Part shown: positions 22,409-48,068 of the stretch, in pieces
Layout: each line of letters starts with the position of its first letter
Position numbering within the stretch: the first letter of the stretch is position 1
IMG/VR virus record: IMGVR_UViG_3300039210_000047
Location: 1-48,071 of that record
Reading direction: 5' to 3' (one strand)
Source of the DNA: a virus
Length of the DNA: 48,071 nucleotides
Notes under the pieces: generated by a model
Seen by the model: only the letters and a program-made list of their open reading frames with translations
Databases searched by the model: none
Told to the model about the DNA's origin: nothing
Made by a program: the position numbers and the translations under genes

Positions 22409-23479
22409 TCATGCTCCTCTGATCGTGGTGATGTTCTCTGACGTTTCAATGATACTAGCAGGGGTTTGGAACATGCGCCGACCTTTCAACAGGTCGTTGC
22501 GTTTCTTCACGTCCACATCCAACCCCAAGTACCGTTCGGTCATCACCGTCGTCTTGTGATGCAACATGGCAGCCACATACCGCAGGACCCCGTCATACGA
22601 ACCCTCATCAACCATTTGATCAAACAAGGCACGCGCACCAGACCGGCGCAACGTGTGCACCCCCTCCATTGTTGACTTCCCGTCCTCACCCCGCAGGTCA
22701 ACACCAAACGCGGCGAGAGGTTTCTGCACGTACCTGTGCGCACGCTGCAACTGGTGATCCGGCACACAGTTGTGGTGCGGCCTGAACACCATGAACCCGC
22801 CCCCCGGACCGGACCCGTCATTACCCAACGGGCGGCGCCGCCGCTGCGGCACCAAGAAAAAGTCCGGCTCCAACGGTGCCTGAATGTCCTGCCCATACCA
22901 AACCAGCCACCTGCGCAGCTCCGTGTCCAGTTCCTGGCAGATGGGCATGGTGTCCACAAGTTGACTTTTCATGACGTGAACCAGAATCTCCTGCCGGTCA
23001 AGGTCAACATCCTTGACCCGCAGCGCTGTGATCTCCGACGACCTGATGAACAGGAACAAACCCAACGCGACAACGATCCGCTCCAACGGGGTGGAGCAAA
23101 CGTCAAGGAACGCTGCGAAGTCTTTGGGGTCAATCCTGGTGCGCGGCTCCAACATGACCTTAATAGCCCTCGTGTTCGCTGTCGGGTCGGCACCACCACC
23201 AAGGTAACGCCGGGACCGGCACCATTTGGTGAACGCGGACAGGCAGGACAGGTGGCTGTTGACAGTGTTGGGTTTGTACCCGCGACCCATCACCCAGGCT
23301 TGGAACAGTTCACCGTGGCGTGCGTCAAGGTGTTTGACTTGCAGGTTTCCGACTTCGCGCAAAAAGTAGGAGAGGGAGCGGGCGTTGACGGTGAGCGTGT
23401 TCGGGCGGAAGCCCGCCGTTTTGCGGTAGGCCAAAAACTCGGTGATGGCGTCACTCAGGGTGAGCGGCAAACCCGCCAT
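22409..23479 (-). CDS. int: Tyrosine integrase (site-specific recombinase)
   Basis: A 356-residue recombinase that would integrate and excise the phage at attP/attB. The N-terminal SAM-like core-binding domain occupies residues 1-90; the catalytic domain shows Arg146 in FIRSSEITALR, the HxxR motif HTLRRSG (His275, Arg278), LHHKTT (His307/308) and the nucleophile Tyr317 in TERYLG. All key residues are present, so it should be active. It is transcribed leftward from a promoter at 23521-23549, away from the divergent HTH gene, with attP just upstream. The start ATG is preceded by GGAGGAGG. Confidence 0.95.
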   Translation of the reverse strand: MAGLPLTLSDAITEFLAYRKTAGFRPNTLTVNARSLSYFLREVGNLQVKHLDARHGELFQAWVMGRGYKPNTVNSHLSCLSAFTKWCRSRRYLGGGADPTANTRAIKVMLEPRTRIDPKDFAAFLDVCSTPLERIVVALGLFLFIRSSEITALRVKDVDLDRQEILVHVMKSQLVDTMPICQELDTELRRWLVWYGQDIQAPLEPDFFLVPQRRRRPLGNDGSGPGGGFMVFRPHHNCVPDHQLQRAHRYVQKPLAAFGVDLRGEDGKSTMEGVHTLRRSGARALFDQMVDEGSYDGVLRYVAAMLHHKTTVMTERYLGLDVDVKKRNDLLKGRRMFQTPASIIETSENITTIRGA

Positions 23480-23601: not shown

Positions 23602-23630
23602 TTATGCGGGTTCTAATCCTACACCCGCAT
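23602..23630. other. Candidate attP core resembling the 3' end of a tRNA-Gly gene
   Basis: TTATGCGGGTTCTAATCC followed by TACACCCGC has the layout of a tRNA T-arm plus acceptor 3' strand; it closely resembles bacterial tRNA-Gly ends (ATGCGGGTTCGATTCC...CACCCGC). No complete tRNA is present. It sits 120 bases upstream of the integrase start, the usual attP position, so integration into a host tRNA-Gly is likely. Exact core limits cannot be seen here. Confidence 0.55.
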
Positions 23631-25700: not shown

Positions 25701-26541
25701 GATGAAACTCCCCTCTCATTTGTCGTACAGTCAAATTTCTTCGATGCTTCGTTGTGGTGAGGCGTGGCGCTTGGAGCGCGGCCTGCACCTGCCGGAGGAC
25801 CCAGCATGGGCGCTCGTTGGTGGCAGTGCTGTTCACAAAGCGTCCGAGTTCATTGATTTTGAACAAGAAACGGACCCCACACAGGCGTTCGTCAACGCGT
25901 TCGATGACTGCATTACTGCCGAAATTGACAAAGCGCCGGAGGAGTTTCGTGACCCCAACGGGTGGCGGGCCAGTGGCAGGCCATCCAAAGCCTGGCCGAA
26001 CAAGGAGGACGAATCCTGGTGGCGGGCCAACGGCCCACTGTTTGTGGGCAACTGGGTCAACTGGCGCAGGAACTCCCCGTTAGAAATTTGGCGGGACGAC
26101 GACGGCAAACTGGCAATCGAACTGGAAGCAACCGTGGAGATTGCGGGCATGCCGGTGAAAGTGTTTATTGACCGTGTGATGACCGGCGCGGCCGGTTTGG
26201 TGGTTGTGGATTTGAAGTCGGGGGGGCCGCCGAAGGACGGCATGCAGTTGGCTATTTACGCGCACGCCCTGAACCAGGTTTATGGGATGGATGTGCGCTT
26301 TGGACAATACTGGATGGCAAGAGACGGTGCCACGTCCGCCAGTTACCCGGTGTCTGAGTGGCCGATGGAACGGCTCGCCTACGTTTTCTCGGGTGTGCGG
26401 AAAATGCAGGAGCAGAACATTTTCATTCCGAACCGGACGAACATGTGCGTGTCGTGCGGCGTGCGACGGTATTGTTTGGCGTTTGGTGGGGAGTTGGCGC
26501 ATGAGGTGCCACAACTTTGGAGCGTGACTAATAGTGAGTGA
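25693..26541 (+). CDS. Cas4/RecB-like PD-(D/E)XK exonuclease with Cys cluster
   Basis: A 282-residue nuclease. Motifs of the RecB/Cas4 family are visible: GGSAVHKASE with His48, IDR with Asp160, VVDLKSGG with Asp173 and Lys175, and a QLAIYAHAL helix with Gln185. Cys21 together with Cys252, Cys255 and Cys261 (CVSCGVRRYC) form the CxnCx2Cx5C set that binds a 4Fe-4S cluster in Cas4 and AddB. It would degrade or trim DNA ends, probably for recombination or replication. No CRISPR array or cas1 is present, so a CRISPR role is unlikely. It lies directly before the methyltransferase. Confidence 0.85.
   Translation: MSEMKLPSHLSYSQISSMLRCGEAWRLERGLHLPEDPAWALVGGSAVHKASEFIDFEQETDPTQAFVNAFDDCITAEIDKAPEEFRDPNGWRASGRPSKAWPNKEDESWWRANGPLFVGNWVNWRRNSPLEIWRDDDGKLAIELEATVEIAGMPVKVFIDRVMTGAAGLVVVDLKSGGPPKDGMQLAIYAHALNQVYGMDVRFGQYWMARDGATSASYPVSEWPMERLAYVFSGVRKMQEQNIFIPNRTNMCVSCGVRRYCLAFGGELAHEVPQLWSVTNSE
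26527..26540 (+). repeat. Junction repeat ACTAATAGTGAGTG, copy 3
   Basis: Again codes for the TNSE end of the upstream protein and carries the GTG start of the methyltransferase. Confidence 0.9.
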
Positions 26542-27223
26542 ACCATACTACAAGGACGACACGGTGACGCTTTACCACGGGGACTGCCTCGACGTGCTGC
26601 CCACGCTTCCTCGTGACTCTGTCGATGTGATTGTCACGGACCCTCCCTACGGGGTTGGGTATCAAAGCAACCGTGGAGGCCACGACAAGATCATCGGGGA
26701 CGCCGGGGAGTTCGACCTAACCGCCTGTCTGAACGCAGCTTGCCGAACTTTGCGGCGGGGGCGACACGCCTACGTGTTCGGTGGGCCGGACCTTGAGGGC
26801 ACGCCGTTGACGGCAGCGGTGGAGTTGATATGGGACAAGCAGATCGTGGGCATGGGGGACCTGTCCCTGCCGTGGTCAAGGTCCCATGAGGTGATCACGT
26901 TCGCCGTCTACGAACCATCCAAGGCCAACAGGGCAAAAGGGTACGGGGGGTTGGCTGCACGGTTACGCCAGGGGTCAGTGATTCATGCGCAAAGGATTCA
27001 GGGTGGCGCAACCTTGCGGCACCCAACGGAGAAGCCGGTTCCGTTGCTCAGGCAACTGATCGAATCGTCCAGCGTGTGGGGCGAGACGGTTCTGGACTTC
27101 TGCGTAGGTGTCGGCTCGACACTGGTGGCAGCGCGTCTTGAGGGCAGAAAAGCCATCGGCATTGAGATTGACGAAAGGTTTTGTGAAGTCGCGGCGGAAC
27201 GACTTTCAGAGGAAGGGAAGTAA
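26534..27223 (+). CDS. Site-specific DNA methyltransferase (N4-C/N6-A, beta class)
   Basis: A 229-residue enzyme with catalytic DPPY at 36-39 (VIVTDPPYGVGY) before the AdoMet-binding motif DFCVGVGST at 188-196; HPTEKP at 163-168 sits just upstream of it, as usual. The order catalytic motif, target-recognition region, AdoMet motif defines the beta class. It would methylate adenine N6 or cytosine N4 in a short DNA site. No cognate restriction nuclease is adjacent, so it is probably a solitary methylase protecting phage DNA from host restriction. The target site cannot be read from sequence. Confidence 0.92.
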   Translation: MSEPYYKDDTVTLYHGDCLDVLPTLPRDSVDVIVTDPPYGVGYQSNRGGHDKIIGDAGEFDLTACLNAACRTLRRGRHAYVFGGPDLEGTPLTAAVELIWDKQIVGMGDLSLPWSRSHEVITFAVYEPSKANRAKGYGGLAARLRQGSVIHAQRIQGGATLRHPTEKPVPLLRQLIESSSVWGETVLDFCVGVGSTLVAARLEGRKAIGIEIDERFCEVAAERLSEEGK

Positions 27224-28662: not shown

Positions 28663-29499
28663 ATGCTCACAGCCGCCCGAAGCCTGCGTAAAGCCGCAGC
28701 GGCAGAACCACTCCCATCCGTAGACGCACTCCGCCGCCTCACAGCGGCAGGGGTGTGCCTGCGGAAGGGGGAACTCACCATGATTGCCGGAATACCCAAC
28801 TCGGGCAAGTCCGCGTTCGTGCTGTGGTGGGCTGCCGCACTCAACCTCCCCACGCTGTACTTCTCCGCCGACACAAGCGCGCACGACACGTTGACCAGGC
28901 TCCTGTCCCACACCACGCAAACCAGCCGGCGCGACATCATCGCAGACCTTGACGACGACGACACCGGCATGGTCATGGAACAGCAATACTCCGACACGCT
29001 GAAAGGGTCGGAGCTGCAATTCGTGTTTGATGGCTCACTCAAGATGAAACAGATCGACGCCGAACTGAACGCCTACGTTGAAATCTTTGATGAGTGGCCG
29101 GAAGTGATTGTGGTGGACAACCTGATCAACATTGAGGACACGTCCGACCATGAAGGCCAGTCGGGGATTCTGTCCGAACTGCATTATCTGGCGCGGTTGA
29201 CTGGCGCGTCCGTGTTTGTGCTGCACCACTGTTCGGAGTCGAACGGGCAGGACCCGTTGAAGGCACCACCGCAGTCAGCAATCCAAAACAAGGTCAGCCA
29301 CTACCCGGACATGATCATGACATTGGCGTTGGATTCTTTGACGGGTGACTTTCAGTTGGCTGCCGTGAAAACAAGGGTGGGTCAGAATGATCCGAAGGCG
29401 CAACGCCCGTACTTGTTGTGGGCGGACATGGACAGGTGCACGTTTTATGCAGATAACCCTAATACGACTTGGACACCTAGCGGATGGGCAAAAGACTGA
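28663..29499 (+). CDS. DnaB/RecA-like replicative helicase ATPase
   Basis: A 278-residue P-loop ATPase: Walker A GIPNSGKS (43-50), Walker B VIVVDNL (148-154) and an HHCSES switch-like segment near 190. It lacks the N-terminal DnaB domain, as in many small phage helicases. It would unwind DNA 5'-3' at the fork together with the split primase encoded 2 kb downstream. An alternative is a RecA-like recombinase, but the [14 protein letters not shown] segment and context favour helicase. GAAAGGCGG precedes the ATG. Confidence 0.75.
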
Positions 29500-31096: not shown

Positions 31097-31467
31097 GCGA
31101 GGACAAACCAGACCTTGCGGCTTGCCTTGAACATTACGGGGTGGTGTTCAGCCCGAACCGTTCAAGCCAGAAATGTTTGTGCCCAGTCCATGACGACCAC
31201 ATCAAATCGTGCTCTCTCAACCTTGATGAGCAGTGGTTTGTGTGTCACGCCTGCGGGGCTAAAGGCGATTCGTGGAACCTAATCATGGCTAAGGAAGGAT
31301 GCGACTTTGCAACCGCTAAGCAGTACGCAGAAGGTTTCGCTAGAGCAAGCGGCAGCCACGTATCAAAAACAACTCAGCCCACAGCTGATGGCCTATTTGG
31401 CAGGACGCGGCCTGGACGCAGAGATGGTGGCAAGCAGCCGTTTCGGCCAAGTTTCGACCGCTCTTAG
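31093..31467 (+). CDS. DNA primase, CHC2 zinc-finger part
   Basis: A 124-residue ORF with the zinc site Cys30-x2-His33 ... Cys51-x2-Cys54 (CPVHDDHIKSC, CHACGAKGD) that recognises template DNA in DnaG-type primases. The real homology ends near residue 90; the rest of this frame (after AEGFARA) is low-complexity Arg/Gly and overlaps the TOPRIM frame. Together with 31307-31960 it makes a split primase. Confidence 0.85.
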   Translation: MSEDKPDLAACLEHYGVVFSPNRSSQKCLCPVHDDHIKSCSLNLDEQWFVCHACGAKGDSWNLIMAKEGCDFATAKQYAEGFARASGSHVSKTTQPTADGLFGRTRPGRRDGGKQPFRPSFDRS

Positions 31468-31960
31468 CGGTCAGGAGTATTTGCAGGGCAGGCTGGTTAT
31501 CCCGTACATCGGACCCAAAGGCAACATTTACAACCTGCGGTTTCGTTGCATGGAACACGAGGATTGCAAAGCGGAGGGGTGCAGCTCCAAGTACATGTCA
31601 CTGCCGGGTTACCCGTCGCGCGTGTTTAGTGTCAGGTCCCTGGTGTCGGCGGACGACAGCATCCATGTAACGGAAGGTGAGATTGACGCGGTCAGTTTGC
31701 ACGCCTGCGGGTTGGCGGCGGTGGGTATTCCTGGTGTGGAGAACATGCCGGCGCACTTTCCGCGCATGATCGCCGGCTTCTCCTCGGTGACGGTTTGGTG
31801 TGACGGGGATGAGGCGGGCAGGAGGTTCGCTGGGACGTTCACGAAGGCTGTCCCGAACGCGAGAGTCATTTCCATGACGGCAGACCAGGACGTTAATTCC
31901 GTGTTCGTGCGTGACGGGAAGGCGGGCATTCTTGCCATGCTGGCTGGTGAGAAGTCATGA
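31307..31960 (+). CDS. DNA primase, TOPRIM catalytic part
   Basis: A 217-residue ORF in the +1 frame relative to the zinc-finger part. TOPRIM motifs: VTEGEIDAVSL (catalytic Glu) and VWCDGDEAGRR (DxD). It synthesises RNA primers. AAGGAAGG 8 bases before the TTG at 31307 allows separate initiation; otherwise a +1 frameshift near the A-run at 31364-31369 would fuse both parts. Split primases are known in other actinophages. The operon segment ends with a new promoter directly downstream. Confidence 0.85.
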   Translation: MQPLSSTQKVSLEQAAATYQKQLSPQLMAYLAGRGLDAEMVASSRFGQVSTALSGQEYLQGRLVIPYIGPKGNIYNLRFRCMEHEDCKAEGCSSKYMSLPGYPSRVFSVRSLVSADDSIHVTEGEIDAVSLHACGLAAVGIPGVENMPAHFPRMIAGFSSVTVWCDGDEAGRRFAGTFTKAVPNARVISMTADQDVNSVFVRDGKAGILAMLAGEKS

Positions 31961-32225: not shown

Positions 32226-32708
32226 ATGAAAGCGTGTAGCAAATGCTCTGTGGTGAAGCCCCTGGATGCCTTCTATGGTCGCAAGGGCAGGGACGGACAC
32301 ACCTCCGACTGCAAGGTCTGCCGCAACACTCGGGTGCAGGAGCGTTTGCGTGATCCAGCGGCGCGGGCCATTGAGAACGCGCGCAGTCGGCAGTGGCGCA
32401 AGGATCACCCGGCGAGGGCGAGCCGTAGTGAACGCAACTCGCGGCTCAAATACAAGTTCGGCATTTCTGCCGACGAATACGACGCGATGTTCGCCAAACA
32501 GGGCAGTCGGTGCGCCCTTTGCTACACCACGGAGAACCAGGCCGAGGGTAAGTCCATGCCGGTTGACCATGACCACGCCACGGGTTTTGTCCGGGCGATC
32601 CTTTGTTACTCATGCAATATCTCTCTCGGCAAGTTCCGTGATGACCCAGCCCTACTCCGCAAGGCGGCTGACTACGTTGAAAGGTCGTGGGAGCCATCAA
32701 ACTCTTAA
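32226..32708 (+). CDS. Recombination endonuclease VII-like HNH protein
   Basis: A 160-residue protein with an N-terminal zinc knuckle (Cys4xxCys7, Cys29xxCys32) and an endonuclease VII domain: CALC (96-99), VDHDHATG with the catalytic DHDH (114-117), and CYSCN (127-131). Phage T4 endonuclease VII resolves Holliday junctions before packaging. This phage therefore has two candidate resolvases, this one and the PD-(D/E)XK one at 29.9 kb. It starts directly after the previous stop and overlaps the exonuclease gene by 22 bases. Confidence 0.9.
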   Translation: MKACSKCSVVKPLDAFYGRKGRDGHTSDCKVCRNTRVQERLRDPAARAIENARSRQWRKDHPARASRSERNSRLKYKFGISADEYDAMFAKQGSRCALCYTTENQAEGKSMPVDHDHATGFVRAILCYSCNISLGKFRDDPALLRKAADYVERSWEPSNS

Positions 32709-33436
32709 CTCTCGACATCGAGTGTAGTCCGAATGTCGGGCATATTTGGGGGCTCTGGAAGCAGACGGTCAGCCTCAACCAGTTGATGGAATCGGGCAGT
32801 GTCATCTCGTTTGCCGCACGTTGGCATGGCACGAAGAAGGTTCTGTTTTACTCCGACTTCCACAGTGGGCACGGCGTGATGGTGCAGGCAGCACACGACC
32901 TGCTCAGTGAGGCTGACGCTGTGATTCATTACAACGGGAACTCGTTTGACATGCCGTGGCTGCACACGGAGTTCCTGCTGGCGGGGATGCCACCGCCGAG
33001 ACCGTACAAGAACGTTGACCTGTTGCTGGCGGTGCGTAAGAAGTTCCGGTTTGTGTCAAACAAACTGGATTACGTGACGAAAGCCATCGGGCTTGAGGGA
33101 AAGGTTCACCATGAGGGGCACACCCTTTGGGTGAAGTGCATGGCTAACGACCCTAAGGCGTGGGCCATGATGCGCAAGTACAACAAAATGGATGTCGTGC
33201 AGACGGAGAAACTGTTTGACATTCTTCGGCCGTGGATCAACGGTTTGCCGAATCCTGCGTTGTATAACGAGTCGGATGAGCGGACGTGTGAGCGTTGTGG
33301 CGGGCACGAGTTCCGAAAGCAAGGTTTCGCGTACACGCAGTTGGGTGCGTATCAGCAGTGGCAGTGCCAAGGGTGCAAGTCTTGGTCGCGGTCTGCTAAG
33401 CGCCACCACTCGGTGGACTTGCGCGGTGTCTCATGA
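32687..33436 (+). CDS. DnaQ-like 3'-5' exonuclease (RNase H-like) with zinc ribbon
   Basis: A 249-residue protein. The exonuclease motifs are LTLDIECS (Asp10, Glu12), HYNGNSFDMP (Asp88) and YNKMDVVQTEKL (Asp169), as in the YprB/DEDD family. The last 50 residues hold a zinc ribbon (Cys201xxCys204 ... Cys227xxCys230). It could proofread for the host polymerase or process DNA ends, since no phage DNA polymerase is visible. GTG start. Confidence 0.8.
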   Translation: MGAIKLLTLDIECSPNVGHIWGLWKQTVSLNQLMESGSVISFAARWHGTKKVLFYSDFHSGHGVMVQAAHDLLSEADAVIHYNGNSFDMPWLHTEFLLAGMPPPRPYKNVDLLLAVRKKFRFVSNKLDYVTKAIGLEGKVHHEGHTLWVKCMANDPKAWAMMRKYNKMDVVQTEKLFDILRPWINGLPNPALYNESDERTCERCGGHEFRKQGFAYTQLGAYQQWQCQGCKSWSRSAKRHHSVDLRGVS

Positions 33437-39342: not shown

Positions 39343-39353
39343 CACACACTATG
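39343..39353 (-). promoter_or_regulatory. -10-like CATAGTGTGTG element
   Basis: On the - strand CATAGTGTGTG matches the extended -10 of the + strand early promoters (TATAGTGTGTG), 25 bases before the gene start. The -35 is weak (CCGCAT). A promoter for the last part of the array is plausible. Confidence 0.4.
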
Positions 39354-39368
39354 AGTTGTGCATCGTTG

Positions 39369-39653
39369 TTATGCGGCGTGCTCCTGGTCGTAAACCCCGT
39401 CGGTCGTGCGCTCATCGCCGCAGTGCACGCAACGCCACGTAACAGGCTGCGCACGGTACTGGTGCCCGTGAGGGGCGCACGGGTGAGCCGGCACCACGGG
39501 TGCCGGTGCTACGTCCTGCAACGGGTACGCAGACACTCGCACCAACCACCACGCCATGCCGGCGAGTGCCACACAGAACAGGAACCCCCAAAACGCGTCC
39601 GGGGTCACCCAGTCGAGGACAAGCCCCGGTGCGGGGCCAGCGGTTGCGCTCAT
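39369..39653 (-). CDS. Membrane protein with C-terminal zinc ribbon
   Basis: A 94-residue protein from ATG 39653 with GAGAGAAGG upstream. One transmembrane helix (WGFLFCVALAGMAWWLV) is followed by a Pro-rich spacer and a CAPHGH ... CVHCGDER metal-binding end. It could monitor or modify the membrane, for example in superinfection exclusion; this is speculation. Confidence 0.65.
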   Translation of the reverse strand: MSATAGPAPGLVLDWVTPDAFWGFLFCVALAGMAWWLVRVSAYPLQDVAPAPVVPAHPCAPHGHQYRAQPVTWRCVHCGDERTTDGVYDQEHAA

Positions 39654-39678
39654 TGTGATCCTTCTCTCATCGGTTGTG

Positions 39679-39689
39679 CACACACTATC
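39679..39689 (-). promoter_or_regulatory. -10-like GATAGTGTGTG element
   Basis: On the - strand GATAGTGTGTG lies 26 bases upstream of the start at 39653, resembling the CATAGTGTGTG at 39343-39353. The -35 region is not convincing. Confidence 0.35.
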
Positions 39690-39729
39690 AGTTTCGAGCA
39701 AAGAAAAAGCCTAGACACGCGAACGGCCG

Positions 39730-40032
39730 TCACTTGTAGTGATTCCCGCCAACATTGTGCGGCGTGTTTGAGCAGTAGCACGGATCTTCCCGCTCGTCTG
39801 CGTTGAGCATGTCGGCAAGGCCATAATCGAGAATGTTGGCAAGCCAGCAACTGGGGGAAGCATCGCCCACAATGTAGCGCAGCACGTCCTCAACACCGTC
39901 GGCGTAAGCCTCCTGCATCGACGTCCAAACGGTCCGGTGTAGTTCTCGGTACGCCCGGTCGCTTGCGCGTTGCGCCTTGTCCGCCATGCTGCGTAGTTCT
40001 GTTCTCTGGCCTATGCGTAACTGAAAGCTCAT
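39730..40032 (-). CDS. 100-aa hypothetical protein
   Basis: ATG 40032 overlaps the stop of the 41-residue gene upstream. Arg-rich helical N-terminal half (ADKAQRASDRAYRELHRTV) and a Cys-containing C-terminus (DPCYCSNTPHN). No family recognised. Confidence 0.65.
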   Translation of the reverse strand: MSFQLRIGQRTELRSMADKAQRASDRAYRELHRTVWTSMQEAYADGVEDVLRYIVGDASPSCWLANILDYGLADMLNADEREDPCYCSNTPHNVGGNHYK

Positions 40033-40154
40033 GACTGCACCTCGGCATCCTGCACGACCGCATCAGTCGGCACGCTCGTATAGCCTTGGTGAAATGCGCG
40101 CACACAGCGCACTATGAGCCAAGGCAGGCCAACCAGCAGAACCAGTTCGACCAT
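40029..40154 (-). CDS. 41-aa membrane mini-protein
   Basis: ATG 40154 has GAGAGGATAGGGAAC upstream, a leader shared with 41149. The N-terminus is hydrophobic (VELVLLVGLPWLIV) like a signal anchor, followed by a short polar tail. The stop overlaps the next start. Below common length limits, yet well supported by context. Confidence 0.6.
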   Translation of the reverse strand: MVELVLLVGLPWLIVRCVRAFHQGYTSVPTDAVVQDAEVQS

Positions 40155-40172
40155 GTTCCCTATCCTCTCGTC

Positions 40173-40286
40173 GTTTGTCTGCGTACATCTGTCCTAAGCG
40201 CCCGCCCAGTGTTTGCATCCTGAGTGCAAGCAACCTACTTTCGGTTACTTGCCCTGCCAAGGACTCGTAATGTTTGTCCTTGGCTA
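40173..40286 (-). ncRNA. Structured leader between leftward genes
   Basis: On the - strand this non-coding stretch holds GCCAAGGAC / GTCCTTGGC (40286-40278 with 40266-40258), a 10-bp GCAAGTAACC / GGTTGCTTGC stem with one wobble, and the 14-base GTACGCAGACAAAC at its end, which recurs at 42117-42130. The region 40155-40335 has no supported gene. It could be a riboregulatory leader for the 41-residue gene. Confidence 0.45.
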
Positions 40287-40335
40287 GGTCCCCGCGTGGT
40301 TACGGGTCGGGCCTTACTGCGCTTGGCTGCCATCG

Positions 40336-42391: not shown

Positions 42392-42636
42392 GCCCTCCCT
42401 GTCATCGTGCACCCGGCACACACCATAAGGTGCGAGCCTGTCGAAATCTCCGATTTCACCATGCAGGACACGGCACCAAACGCCGTGTCCATCCCAACCA
42501 AACGACCACACACATCCGTCATGCCGCATGCGTGGCACGTTCCCCTCACAGGGAACGCAAACCGCACGTGCGGCAACGGTGCAGGGTAAGTACAGGTCCC
42601 GTCAGGACCCACCTGCCAAAGCGTTGCCGTGGTCAC
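42388..42636 (-). CDS. 82-aa zinc-finger-like protein
   Basis: GTG 42636 overlaps the preceding stop. CHACGMTDVCGR and the C-terminal CAGC supply four to five Cys for a zinc site. Beta-rich otherwise (TYPAPLPHVRFAFPVRG). Probably binds nucleic acid or protein. Confidence 0.6.
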   Translation of the reverse strand: MTTATLWQVGPDGTCTYPAPLPHVRFAFPVRGTCHACGMTDVCGRLVGMDTAFGAVSCMVKSEISTGSHLMVCAGCTMTGRA

Positions 42637-42908
42637 GACTCGTCGCCTGAGCAGATCGTGCACCCATCCGCCTGCTGGCCGGAGCACGCCGCGTGCCCTT
42701 CCACCACATCCAGAACGGCCGACAGCGCGTTAACCAACGCGCGAGCCTGACCGATGCTCAGGTACATCTCCGGCAGACCGGTGAAGTCCGGCAGCAACCA
42801 CTCAACCTTGTGGAACCCCTCCCACGCGTTCGGCTTGACTCTCACAACAGCATCAGAACCAACCACCGTGAACTGGTACACGCTCGACTTACGGACACGA
42901 TCAGACAT
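42633..42908 (-). CDS. 91-aa protein, first gene of the leftward array
   Basis: ATG 42908 with GAAGGGAAACGTC upstream. Mixed domain with VYQFTVVGSDAVVRVKPN (strands), a helical GQARALVNALSAVLDVV and a C-terminal CSGQQADGCTICSGDE cluster. The upstream 300 bases lead into the repeat-rich non-coding region. Unknown function. Confidence 0.65.
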   Translation of the reverse strand: MSDRVRKSSVYQFTVVGSDAVVRVKPNAWEGFHKVEWLLPDFTGLPEMYLSIGQARALVNALSAVLDVVEGHAACSGQQADGCTICSGDES

Positions 42909-43162
42909 GACGTTTCCCTTCGCTCGGTTCGTGCTCATACAGCAGACTGTCCTCCTCATATTGTGTAAACGCAAGCACCCTAGTGTAACGATCTGATAAC
43001 GGCGTTGTGTGTGCCCAGCAGGCCACACCCTGACATCAGCCATCCCACTGACAGGCTCCAGTATGAAGCCATGCATCTTGACATCAAGATATGCCACATG
43101 CAACAACGCCCATGCCTGACAACATGCTTGCGCCATACAACTACCCAGCCCGACAGTCTGCG

Positions 43163-43203
43163 GTTCTATAACTAACGCTTATGTACTATAGAACGTAGCG
43201 TTA
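43163..43203. repeat. Two overlapping inverted repeats
   Basis: GTTCTATA (43163-43170) / TATAGAAC (43187-43194) and TAACGCT (43173-43179) / AGCGTTA (43197-43203) are interleaved, so both hairpins cannot form together. This is typical of switch RNA or paired protein sites. Confidence 0.7.
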
Positions 43204-43229
43204 TGCCTCCATACTGCCTACCCAGTACA

Positions 43230-43440
43230 ATGCCTAGTACAATACTAGGGCATGCATGTGCATTGTACTAACCTATGTACTACGTGATGATATGTGTACG
43301 TACTAGATGCATGCGCATTAGGCAGGCATGCACTATGCATTGTACTAATGCATGTACTACATGTGCGTGCATGCATTAGACAAGCATGCCAATGACTCAA
43401 TGAGTGCACATGTGCATGAGCTGAGCACAAACAAGGCATG
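43230..43440. repeat. GCATGC/GTACTA repeat cluster
   Basis: TGCATTGTACTAA occurs at 43259-43271 and 43336-43348, each followed three bases later by ATGTACTAC. GCATGC occurs five times and the inverse TAGTACAAT is present at 43236-43244. The pattern resembles iterons or protein-binding arrays. Confidence 0.75.
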
Positions 43441-43611
43441 GCATAACCCAATAACCATACAATATAGGACATCCAGCCTGCTTTGACCCCATCATGTTAA
43501 AATGTCCGGTTATGTGTCGTGTATAATGTCTTCTGTCTGTTCTCCCGGAGTATCCCCGTTAGCAGGTGGCATTTATTTTTTGCAGGAGCTGGCATTGTTT
43601 TGGTGGTTGGT

Positions 43612-43659
43612 GGGGGTGGGTTGGGGCCTGGCGGGGGTGGTGGTGAAACCTGTGGATAA
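43612..43659 (+). other. G-quadruplex motif followed by DnaA box
   Basis: Four G-runs (43612-43616, 43618-43620, 43623-43626, 43633-43637) with loops of 1-6 bases meet the usual G4 pattern. TGTGGATAA at 43651-43659 is a perfect inverse of the consensus DnaA box TTATCCACA; CGTGTATAA at 43518-43526 is a near match. Confidence 0.6.
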
Positions 43660-43744
43660 CCCGTGGGTCTCAGGGGGTGGGACGGTAAACCCGCAGGTCA
43701 CAGGGTTATTTGGGTTGTTGCTGGACTGTCGGGCGTGTTTCGAT

Positions 43745-43850
43745 ACCTCTTAAGAGGTGGGAAGGAGAAAAGGCGAAGCGGGCGTGCAAACGACCGTAAG
43801 GGAGTTTGCATAAAGCGCTTGTTAGCAGCAACCCTTTTAAGAGGGTTGCT
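43745..43850. repeat. Cluster of three hairpins
   Basis: A 14-bp palindrome ACCTCTTAAGAGGT (43745-43758); TGCAAAC / GTTTGCA (43785-43791, 43804-43810); AGCAACCCT / AGGGTTGCT (43827-43835, 43842-43850). The last resembles the hairpin at 24286-24309 and is followed by a GCGTTTTT run at 43861-43868, so it may also terminate rightward readthrough. Confidence 0.7.
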
Positions 43851-43984
43851 AAGCAGTAAAGCGTTTTTAAGCCGCGCACGCGAGAGATGACTTAGGTCAT
43901 CGAATTCTTTGAAACTGCACATGAATGTGTGGTCGTTGGGGGTTTAGTTTGCGCGTCGTGGTGACCACCCCCGCCGGGTGACGC

Positions 43985-44013
43985 TTGTCTCGTAGGTTGC
44001 ACCCTTGTATGAT
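43985..44013 (+). promoter_or_regulatory. Promoter of the rightward 44-kb operon
   Basis: TTGTCT (43985-43990), 17 bp, TATGAT (44008-44013); the preceding ACGC and spacing match the promoters at 24462 and 31964. It is 30 bases before the first gene start. Confidence 0.75.
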
Positions 44014-44042
44014 GGGGGTAACAACCAATTGAGGAGATGGTT

Positions 44043-44354
44043 ATGTATACGAGTCCTGGTGACGCGTTGGTTCTTGAGGACTTGCGTGAGTCGTTGGGTG
44101 GCGGGTTTAGTGTTGGGCCTGAGCCGCCTTATGATCCCGTTGGTATGGCGTGGGCTAATGGTAGGCGTTGTACTGTGGGTGAGGACCCTGGCCCGGATAC
44201 TTCTCCGGGGTTTGTTTGGGCCGATGGAACCCCCATAGCGGTGTACCCCCAACCCCCCAGTGCTGCGGAGTTCCGCGCGTTGGTGGCGAAGCATGGCGTG
44301 CCGTGCCGGCGCGCCACCGCCGAGGAGCTGCTGCGGCTGATGGGGAATGAGTAG
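44043..44354 (+). CDS. 103-aa hypothetical protein
   Basis: ATG 44043 is preferred over 44037 because GAGGAG (44031-44036) is 6 bases upstream. Pro/Gly-rich, with a helical Leu/Arg C-terminus (ATAEELLRLMGNE). First gene after the 43.99 kb promoter. No family recognised. Confidence 0.65.
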   Translation: MYTSPGDALVLEDLRESLGGGFSVGPEPPYDPVGMAWANGRRCTVGEDPGPDTSPGFVWADGTPIAVYPQPPSAAEFRALVAKHGVPCRRATAEELLRLMGNE

Positions 44355-44827: not shown

Positions 44828-44900
44828 TGCCCGACGGTCTGCTGGCAGGCCATCCTGGTTCTGACCCAGGACCCCGTTGGTTCGATTCCAGCTCGGGCAG
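44828..44900 (+). tRNA. tRNA-Gln (CTG anticodon)
   Basis: Perfect 7-bp acceptor TGCCCGA / TCGGGCA, anticodon arm CCTGG-TTCTGAC-CCAGG with CTG, T-arm GTTGG-TTCGATT-CCAGC and discriminator G. CCA is not encoded. Confidence 0.93.
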
Positions 44901-44911
44901 CGAAGCGGTAC

Positions 44912-44985
44912 GGCAAGGTGGCCCAATTGGTAGAGGCGCCGGTTTCAAACTCCGGAGGTTGTGGGTTCGACTCCCACTCTTGCTA
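44912..44985 (+). tRNA. tRNA with CAA anticodon (Leu, UUG codon)
   Basis: Acceptor GGCAAGG / TCTTGCT (two G-U pairs) and discriminator A; anticodon arm CCGGT-TTCAAAC-TCCGG with CAA, where the closing pair is U-U; T-arm GTGGG-TTCGACT-CCCAC. The variable loop is only five bases, unlike normal bacterial tRNA-Leu, but as seen in some phage tRNAs. Codon assignment rests on the anticodon only. Confidence 0.85.
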
Positions 44986-45079
44986 CGAAGCGGTCCCGCG
45001 CTGGGAGGCATCCTGGCGCGCTTAGGGAATCCCCATGACGACCACACGTGGTGCACTGCGTGTAGGCCCAGGGTAGAGA

Positions 45080-46175: not shown

Positions 46176-48068
46176 ATGGCGACAAGGATCGTGGGGCTGA
46201 CAGGTGTGCCCGCAATCAAAGCCAAACTGATCGAGCTGGTGGGTAAGGGCATGTCCGTGAAGGACGCCTGCTCCCTGGTGGGGCGTTCCGTTAAAACGTT
46301 TGAGAACTATCAGGGGTCGGACCCTGAGTTCAGTAAGGCTATCGCCGCGTCGAGGGTGCGGTTGAAGCGTGCGGTGCGTTCGGATGAGGACCCGGAGGTG
46401 TTCAACCTCAGTTTCGCGGAGTGGCGGAAACGCTACCTCGGCAGGGAGACATATCCGCACCACCAGTTGTGGGTGGACGTGTTGGAGGGCAAGGAGCCCA
46501 CCTTGTGGCATCCTGCCCTGCAATATACGAAAGGTTCACCGCGCCGGGTCCTGATCAACTGCCCGCCTCACCATGGCAAGAGCACCGTGTTGACCACGGA
46601 GTATACGACGTACCGGCTGTGTCTCAACCCGGCCTTGCGTATTGTGATCATTTCAAAGACGGCGGAGTTCGCCTCCGCGTTCTTGCACAGCATTAAGACG
46701 ATGCTCACGGACCCTGAGTTCATAGACCTGCAAAAAGCCTATGGCCCGCCTGATGGGTTTAAGCCCCAAAGGGGCGAGGGGCGTTGGGCCAACAACGTGA
46801 TCTACTTGGCGGATAGGAACCTGGACGCTGCGGACAAGGCGGCTAAGGACCCTAGTGTTATCGCAATGGGTATCGGCTCAGGTGGAATCTACGGTCGTCG
46901 GGCTGACCTCGTCATCCTCGATGACGCCATTGACGACAACAACGCGCACGCTTACGCGAAGCAGTTTGACTGGCTCACCCGAACGGTTTTGTCGCGTAAC
47001 AAGACAGGCATCGTGGCGTTGGTGGGGACACGAGTCGCCCCGATGGACCTCTACAGTCACGTTCTGAATGACGACATTTACATTACGGGTAAGTCCCCGT
47101 GGACGGTGCTGCGCACGCCGGCAGTGTTGGAGTACGCGGAGGACCCTAAAGACTGGGTGACCCTGTGGCCCAAGTCCAGCCAGCCACTTGATGAGAACCT
47201 TGAGGTTGAACCGGACAAGGATGGCATGTATCCCGCATGGGATGGGCCGTCTTGTGCGGAGGCCCGTGCTGACAACCGGCCCATGATTTGGGCTTTGGTG
47301 TGGCAGCAGCAGCAAACTTCTGACGACATGACGTTCAGCTCCCAATGTGTGCGGGGGTGCGTGGAAGGTCGGAGGAAGGCTGGCCCTTTGAAGGCTGGGG
47401 CTTGGGGTCACCCGAAGTTTGGCGCTGAGGGCATGCAGGTGATGGGGTCTATTGACCCTGCCGGCACTGGGGAAGCGTTCATCCTGGTGTACGCCGTGGA
47501 TCGGCGCACTAAGGAGCGTTGGGTCCTTAACGCCTGGATGGGGTCTGACACGTTGCCGTCGTGGTATGCGGCGCGCATTGAGGAACTGACCCCCCTGTAT
47601 GGGATCACTGAGTGGGTTGTTGAAGCTCAGGGGTACTCCAATTGGTTGTATCACGATGAGCGGGTCATGGCTTATTGCAAGCAGCGGGGCATTAAGATCA
47701 GCCCGCATTACACGGGTAGGAACAAGATCGACCCTGATTTTGGTGTGGCGAGTATGGAGGGCCTGTTTGGGACGTTGTCCCCGGAGGTTTCGGGCGGCAA
47801 GTTGAAGCATAACGGCGACAACATCCTGCATTTGCCCGACCCTGACTCAAGTCAGGGCGTGAAGGCGCTGATTGACCAGTTGGTGACTTGGGTGCCGGGT
47901 AAGTCTGGCGGGAAACTCCGTCAGGATGGCCCGATGGCATTGTGGTTCGCTGAAACTAGGGCTCGACTCTATGTTACAGGCGGGGATCACCCCCTAACGA
48001 CGCACGTTAAGAACAAGTATTTGAGTCGCAGGGCTGCCGGCAGGCAGTTTGTTACCGGCGCGAACTAG
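46176..48068 (+). CDS. terL: Terminase large subunit, complete
   Basis: A 630-residue packaging motor. The ATPase has Walker A PPHHGKST (130-137) and Walker B LVILDDAIDD (245-254). The nuclease half begins near residue 415 with GSIDPAGTG (Asp427), and later VVEAQGYSNW and ALIDQLV segments carry further acidic residues. Residues 15-46 (IELVGKGMSVKDACSLVGRSVKTFENY) look like a helix-turn-helix fused to the N-terminus, a role usually met by the small terminase, and no separate small terminase gene is visible. Start ATG 46176. The C-terminal 289 codons are repeated, with variation, at 1-872. Confidence 0.95.
   Translation: MATRIVGLTGVPAIKAKLIELVGKGMSVKDACSLVGRSVKTFENYQGSDPEFSKAIAASRVRLKRAVRSDEDPEVFNLSFAEWRKRYLGRETYPHHQLWVDVLEGKEPTLWHPALQYTKGSPRRVLINCPPHHGKSTVLTTEYTTYRLCLNPALRIVIISKTAEFASAFLHSIKTMLTDPEFIDLQKAYGPPDGFKPQRGEGRWANNVIYLADRNLDAADKAAKDPSVIAMGIGSGGIYGRRADLVILDDAIDDNNAHAYAKQFDWLTRTVLSRNKTGIVALVGTRVAPMDLYSHVLNDDIYITGKSPWTVLRTPAVLEYAEDPKDWVTLWPKSSQPLDENLEVEPDKDGMYPAWDGPSCAEARADNRPMIWALVWQQQQTSDDMTFSSQCVRGCVEGRRKAGPLKAGAWGHPKFGAEGMQVMGSIDPAGTGEAFILVYAVDRRTKERWVLNAWMGSDTLPSWYAARIEELTPLYGITEWVVEAQGYSNWLYHDERVMAYCKQRGIKISPHYTGRNKIDPDFGVASMEGLFGTLSPEVSGGKLKHNGDNILHLPDPDSSQGVKALIDQLVTWVPGKSGGKLRQDGPMALWFAETRARLYVTGGDHPLTTHVKNKYLSRRAAGRQFVTGAN

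Follow-up and report, generated by a model that had tools for sequence, protein, structure and literature searches.

A repeat-rich non-coding gap between divergent phage operons is a candidate packaging terminus and replication origin

Where does a phage that may rely on a host polymerase begin to copy its DNA? To our knowledge, vegetative replication origins have barely been mapped in actinobacteriophages without a polymerase of their own. The window analyzed here (the whole stretch of DNA, 48,071 nt) raises this question at a 1.1-kb gap between divergent operons, which an initial annotation, made from the letters alone, had proposed as a replication origin used by host DnaA and polymerase.

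At 48,071 bp, the window is a complete viral record, assembled from a metagenome. Bases 1–852 match 47197–48048 at 89%, both ends lying within the large terminase gene (terL), and in the metagenomic contig L002 terL runs directly into the portal gene, with 98–100% identity to both sides. The record therefore comes close to the full circular map (∼47.2 kb), interrupted in terL where the differing sequences of two strains have been joined. Its structural genes are collinear with those of the Streptomyces Beephvirinae (Manuelvirus, Flowerpowervirus, Immanueltrevirus) at 20–58% protein identity, and the terminase, portal, capsid, tail, helicase, and primase proteins are homologous. Judged from these protein sequences (terminase, 40%), the phage is a distant relative of this group. 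Unlike the Beephvirinae, it has an integrase gene (22409–23479), so it is probably temperate, and its replication module is inverted. Beside the integrase gene, the sequence at 23606–23630 resembles the 3′ part of a tRNA (GGGTTCTAATCC..) and is probably the phage attachment core. Searches for prophage relatives in genomes through terL, and for relatives through one protein of the leftward operon, found none.

The replication proteins comprise a RecB/Cas4-type exonuclease, a DnaB-like helicase, a Toprim primase, a DnaQ-like exonuclease, and endonuclease VII. A DNA methylase (N6_N4_Mtase) gene at 26534–27223 also lies within the replication module. Among the proteins scanned, which included part of the small ORFs, none was a polymerase; this fits the proposed use of the host polymerase.

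The gap itself is 1,128 bp long, the leftward gene starting at 42908 and the rightward gene, with a good RBS, at 44037 (Table 1). Its GC content is 50.3%, falling to 42–47% at 43151–43500, compared with ∼59% for the genome. The description of the gap as the only long gene-free stretch between divergent operons holds for 42909–44036, but "only" is slightly too strong, as 39346–40335 is also without a well-scoring gene. The gap of the relative L004 is ∼70% identical to that of the window where the two can be aligned, and the comparison with relatives that had been suggested as a check finds the gap conserved in place and partly in sequence. A direct nucleotide search of the gap against phages gave no match, and an Rfam scan of the record returned tRNA only, the weak matches in the gap being at chance level. 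The two tRNA genes between the gap and terL (Gln-CTG and Leu-CAA) lie at 44828–44986.

Table 1. Positions of the features discussed, in window coordinates
Feature	Position	Strand	Remarks
DnaB-like helicase	28663–29499		
Toprim primase	31307–31960		
DnaQ-like exonuclease	32687–33436		
First gene of leftward operon	42636–42908	−	No Pfam match
Non-coding gap between divergent operons	42909–44036	.	ORF map; flanking starts; map position shared with L004, L008, L010, and Beephvirinae
GACAGTC copy (7-mer enriched beside family terminus block)	42945–42951	−	
GACAGTC copy	43152–43158	+	Conserved in L004
Iteron-like array	43182–43359	.	TGTACTA at 43182, 43235(−), 43264, 43276, 43341, 43353
GCATGC/ATGCAT-rich alternating purine-pyrimidine tracts	43250–43418	.	
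GGACATC...ATGTCCG inverted pair	43467–43508	.	CGGACA repeats enriched left of relatives' terminus block
Candidate terminus block: TTGACCCC..ATGTTAA, spacer, TTCTCCCGGAG	43483–43550	+	Nearly L010 spacing; family profile misses window
G4 motif	43612–43637	+	One of six in record
Perfect DnaA box (TTATCCACA)	43651–43659	−	Inside 23-nt stretch identical in L004
Degenerate copy of GTTTYCGCAGGTCAGAGGCTTG element	43687–43708	+	7/22 mismatches
GACAGTC copy inside GCTGGACTGTCGGGC	43724–43730	−	100% conserved in L004
Hairpin with conserved GACC..GG(G)A apex	43784–43811	+	Stems differ yet stay complementary in L010, L011, L291, L292
Bulged long hairpin ending in T run	43812–43867	+	Compensatory differences versus L004
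First gene of rightward operon leading to terL	44037–44354	+	No Pfam match; homologue in L004

The most conspicuous feature of the gap is its content of short repeats, which form the strongest such cluster of the record. GTACTA occurs seven times in the gap and three times in the other 47 kb, TGTACTA six times and once elsewhere, and GCATGC five times and 14 times elsewhere. Both annotated repeats, GCATGC and GTACTA, are confirmed as exceeding chance: in dinucleotide shuffles of the gap, none of 500 reaches seven copies of GTACTA (mean 0.56) and one of 500 reaches five of GCATGC (mean 0.82). GTAC-type sites stand 12 bp apart in three pairs (43224/43236, 43264/43276, and 43341/43353), the first pair being inverted relative to the other two. 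L004 retains one GTACA pair at this spacing, with changed flanks. The 400 bp from 43101 are the repeat-richest of the record (k = 8), with 57% covered versus 36.5% in the best stretch outside the gap, and the record's two longest alternating purine-pyrimidine runs (43358 and 43404) both fall within the gap. Other elements of the original description fared less well. Palindromes reach their highest density in the genome at 43101–43500, but their number is not above chance (21 of 6 bp, versus 19.2 ± 4.1 in shuffles), and the G4 motif, although present at 43612, does not exceed chance.

The perfect DnaA box, TGTGGATAA at 43651, is the record's only perfect TTATCCACA. Among relatives, the L314 gap carries four TGTGGATAA boxes within ∼70 bp, L321 has TTATCCACA and TTGTCCACA 22 bp apart, and the L008 gap has two TTGTCCACG at the matching place. 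DnaA boxes are few across the family (7 in 147 kb upstream of terL and 3 in 298 kb downstream), so it is the clusters, rather than the rate, that carry the argument for an origin. The gap displays two hallmarks of iteron-type origins, short repeats clustered above chance and a DnaA box, although it has no more than this one box, which counts against an origin. The AT-richer segment at 43151–43500 is without strongly AT-rich repeats, and the most AT-rich conserved stretch is GGCATTTATTTTTTGCAG. Among the proteins scanned, the neighbors of the gap include no RepA- or O-like initiator, and the flanking proteins match neither Pfam nor PHROG families; an unrecognized initiator there is possible. 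The suggested check of GC skew yields a detrended minimum at 43557, which fits an origin, but is confounded by divergent transcription, and third-position skew gives no clear replication signal; it is not decisive, because the skew follows gene direction. As a rival origin, the segment 23480–23720, with two inverted copies of GCAGGTCA, was set aside as an integrase/attP-like control region without an iteron array. The proposal of an origin in the gap survives, being in keeping with its conserved place, the 12-bp-spaced repeats, the DnaA box, and the DnaA-box clusters of relatives, but it missed that Beephvirinae genomes end in the same gap.

In WRightOn, FlowerPower, Dennebes, and Immanuel3, the leftward operon is followed by a non-coding gap and then by terL, the same gene order as around the window gap, which is likewise non-coding, with a leftward operon on one side and the rightward operon leading to terL on the other. 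The Beephvirinae non-coding stretch measures 1.8–2.2 kb on the circular map and contains both ends of the linear genome. Exact direct terminal repeats of 253–276 bp are present in seven of the eight Beephvirinae genomes checked, with the left edge immediately before GTCC and the right edge between GAGTG and AGTCCC; Abafar, the eighth, is offset. Terminal repeats of 253 bp have been reported for five of these phages (PMC9753666). With terminal repeats at the same place, the leading rival to an origin is a packaging terminus, and much of the conservation of the gap may serve packaging. Just right of the terminal repeat, six of the seven Beephvirinae genomes viewed carry TGTGA-N6-TCACA (e.g., L028:288–310), which matches the CRP-family consensus.

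A right-boundary profile, grown from the Beephvirinae genomes and five metagenomic relatives, finds 40 members, mostly 370–550 bp before terL, with L010 and L299 as marginal matches. The terminus-block profile (nhmmer) has no match in the gaps of the window and L004, and a profile of L010, L011, L291, and L292 has none in the window gap. Unlike the Beephvirinae gaps, then, the window gap is missed by the terminus profile, has a TGTACTA array of its own as well as a perfect DnaA box, and is separated from terL by tRNAs and small genes; like them, it contains GCAGGTCA and GGACAT-type motifs. Both the window and L004 share with L010 the pattern TTGACCC..TG.TTAA followed, 57–60 bases on, by TTCTCCCGGAG, which occurs once in the window and was composed post hoc, and spaced short motifs of the window gap also agree with L291; such motifs were in part aligned by eye, post hoc. 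In a fairer test, the 40 members, with the window and L004 excluded, gave GACAGTC, ATGTCCG, TCGGACA, and ACTGTCC as the 7-mers with the highest enrichment in the 300 bp to the left of the block. These four occur five times in the window gap versus 0.36 expected (P = 4e-5, slightly less significant in that two of these occurrences overlap). The density of CGGACA repeats is fivefold higher in the 300 bp immediately left of the terminus block than beyond them on that side, and several lie within the terminal repeat in Beephvirinae. By position and composition, the window gap is likely homologous to the Beephvirinae terminus gap, of which the profile gives no proof.

A further link between these gaps is a short element shared well beyond the family. 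GCAGGTCAGAG is found in 17 of 60 terL-upstream regions of relatives and nowhere in 351 kb downstream. Exact or nearly exact copies of the GTTTYCGCAGGTCAGAGGCTTG element lie in the gaps of L010, L011, L291, L292, and L008; the window copy at 43687 does not stand out from chance sites in the rest of the genome, and a GGTAAAC.CGCAGGTCA stretch is common to the window and L008. The longer, 19-nt form, GTTTYCGCAGGTCAGAGGC, is present in at least 117 genomic stretches, nearly all of the listed ones being actinobacterial, and in at least 120 stretches of viral contigs. Its loci include L173, L178, L181, L192, L218, L222, L239, L270, L051, and L052. In a number of phage loci it sits among iterons that differ by locus (GTAGTCACC, GTGCCACTTT, AGGGCAGTTT, AGGGACT, and GGACGTATC), and repeat coverage around it is 0.091 versus 0.045 in control windows (62 non-redundant viral loci), with almost no excess at genome loci (0.060 versus 0.054). 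On linear plasmids, the distance from GTTTYCGCAGGTCAGAGGC is ∼200 bp to RepL in S. uncialis and ∼200 bp to a gene pair of similar arrangement in Kitasatospora; in S. albidoflavus, the element adjoins iterons. The window gap resembles such iteron-bearing replication regions in phages and linear plasmids of Actinobacteria (e.g., L051, L052, and the plasmids of S. albidoflavus and S. uncialis) in combining short non-coding repeats with a GCAGGTCA element, but no initiator gene was found alongside it and its element copy is degenerate. In mycobacteriophages, the element falls within ∼150 bp of the right genome end in 36 of 40 evenly sampled matches, mostly from one cluster. A role of the GCAGGTCA element purely as a packaging signal, as these right ends might suggest, is too narrow, the element being found also in plasmid replication regions, iteron arrays, and tRNA-adjacent hairpins.

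The reading that we prefer, with our confidence evenly divided for and against, is that the gap is the combined terminus-and-origin region of the family. It rests on the repeat array, the conserved DnaA box, the map position shared with terminal-repeat gaps, and the family-enriched k-mers. Judged from such sequence comparisons, the terminus part is the more firmly grounded, and an overlapping origin, itself unproven, is plausible as the best single account and has more support than the letters alone had given it. The phage DNA would be circular or concatemeric, and a putative initiator would bind the TGTACTA array while host DnaA would bind the box at 43651. The adjacent AT-richer DNA would then open, the phage DnaB-like helicase and Toprim primase would presumably be loaded, and host polymerase III would copy the DNA, probably outward. 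Late in infection, terminase would recognize the same gap and cut it to leave short direct terminal repeats, the right end perhaps near 43530 and the left end perhaps near 43300. If the gap is indeed both terminus and origin, it offers a delimited 1.1-kb segment for tests and predicts the place to examine in Beephvirinae.

Alternatively, the gap could comprise only a packaging terminus and the promoters of the two divergent operons, with replication starting elsewhere and the repeats bound by the terminase small subunit or a regulator. We consider this possible, if somewhat unlikely. It agrees with the terminal repeats in Beephvirinae gaps (PMC9753666), with the CGGACA repeats in and beside them, and with the related element near the right physical end of many mycobacteriophages (the sampled matches above), but it leaves unexplained the conserved DnaA box, the DnaA-box clusters of relatives, and the plasmid replication regions that contain the element.

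The right part of the gap contains the annotated hairpins: folding of 43700–43900 gives z = −4.1, and that of its counterpart in L004 gives −3.7. The GACC..GG(G)A hairpin lies ∼100–150 bp right of the element in the window, L004, L010, L011, L291, and L292. These hairpins may be RNA or single-stranded DNA structures. Their stability and the co-variation of their stems between relatives, together with the divergent operons, the dyads in the repeats, and the probably temperate lifestyle implied by an integrase elsewhere, would suit a divergent regulatory region, in which TGTACTA represents repressor operators, each operon has a promoter, and 43700–43870 encodes a structured non-coding RNA. This is distinctly unlikely: the integrase and its control region are far off, at ∼23.5 kb, and TGTACTA is not scattered through the genome as stoperators would be. 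Nor does the annotated promoter stand out. A promoter-like TTGTCT-17-TATGAT precedes the rightward operon at 43985–44013 (+), with similar −10-like sequences in L004, L010, and L011, but one such site in the gap compares with 1.5 expected, no excess over shuffles; the one terminator-like site is likewise not above chance (0.8 expected). An RNA-primed origin like that of extrachromosomal cluster A mycobacteriophage prophages, with 43700–43870 as putative primer RNA, is highly improbable: such origins exist in actinophages as non-coding segments with possible RNA structure (PMC7157519), and the structured segment here is conserved across relatives, but the cluster A origins serve prophage maintenance in phages that carry parABS and no integrase, whereas the window phage has an integrase and a non-exhaustive search found no parABS in its place.

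Returning to the combined terminus and origin, a broader version is that the two are merged family-wide, so that in terminal-repeat phages each end would carry a copy of part of the iteron array, and that the region uses GTTTYCGCAGGTCAGAGGC, which phages and plasmids of Actinobacteria share without being related and which a host replication factor would read. We regard this as tentative and rather unlikely. The shared element, with its occurrences near phage termini, in iteron arrays, and in plasmid replication regions of many Actinobacteria, would open the idea of a common host factor to direct testing, and GTTTYCGCAGGTCAGAGGC, a by-product of this analysis that is spread across Actinobacteria, may hold more interest than the window. 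In about one-fifth of the genome matches listed, in Nocardioides and others, GTTTYCGCAGGTCAGAGGC forms half of a hairpin, often beside a tRNA gene; this form may be a terminator, and the known mycobacterial terminator motif TRIT was considered in this connection. In the literature searched, no paper describes the shared element, and the only phage paper in which it appears concerns phiJoe, where it forms part of a PCR primer for the int-attP region.
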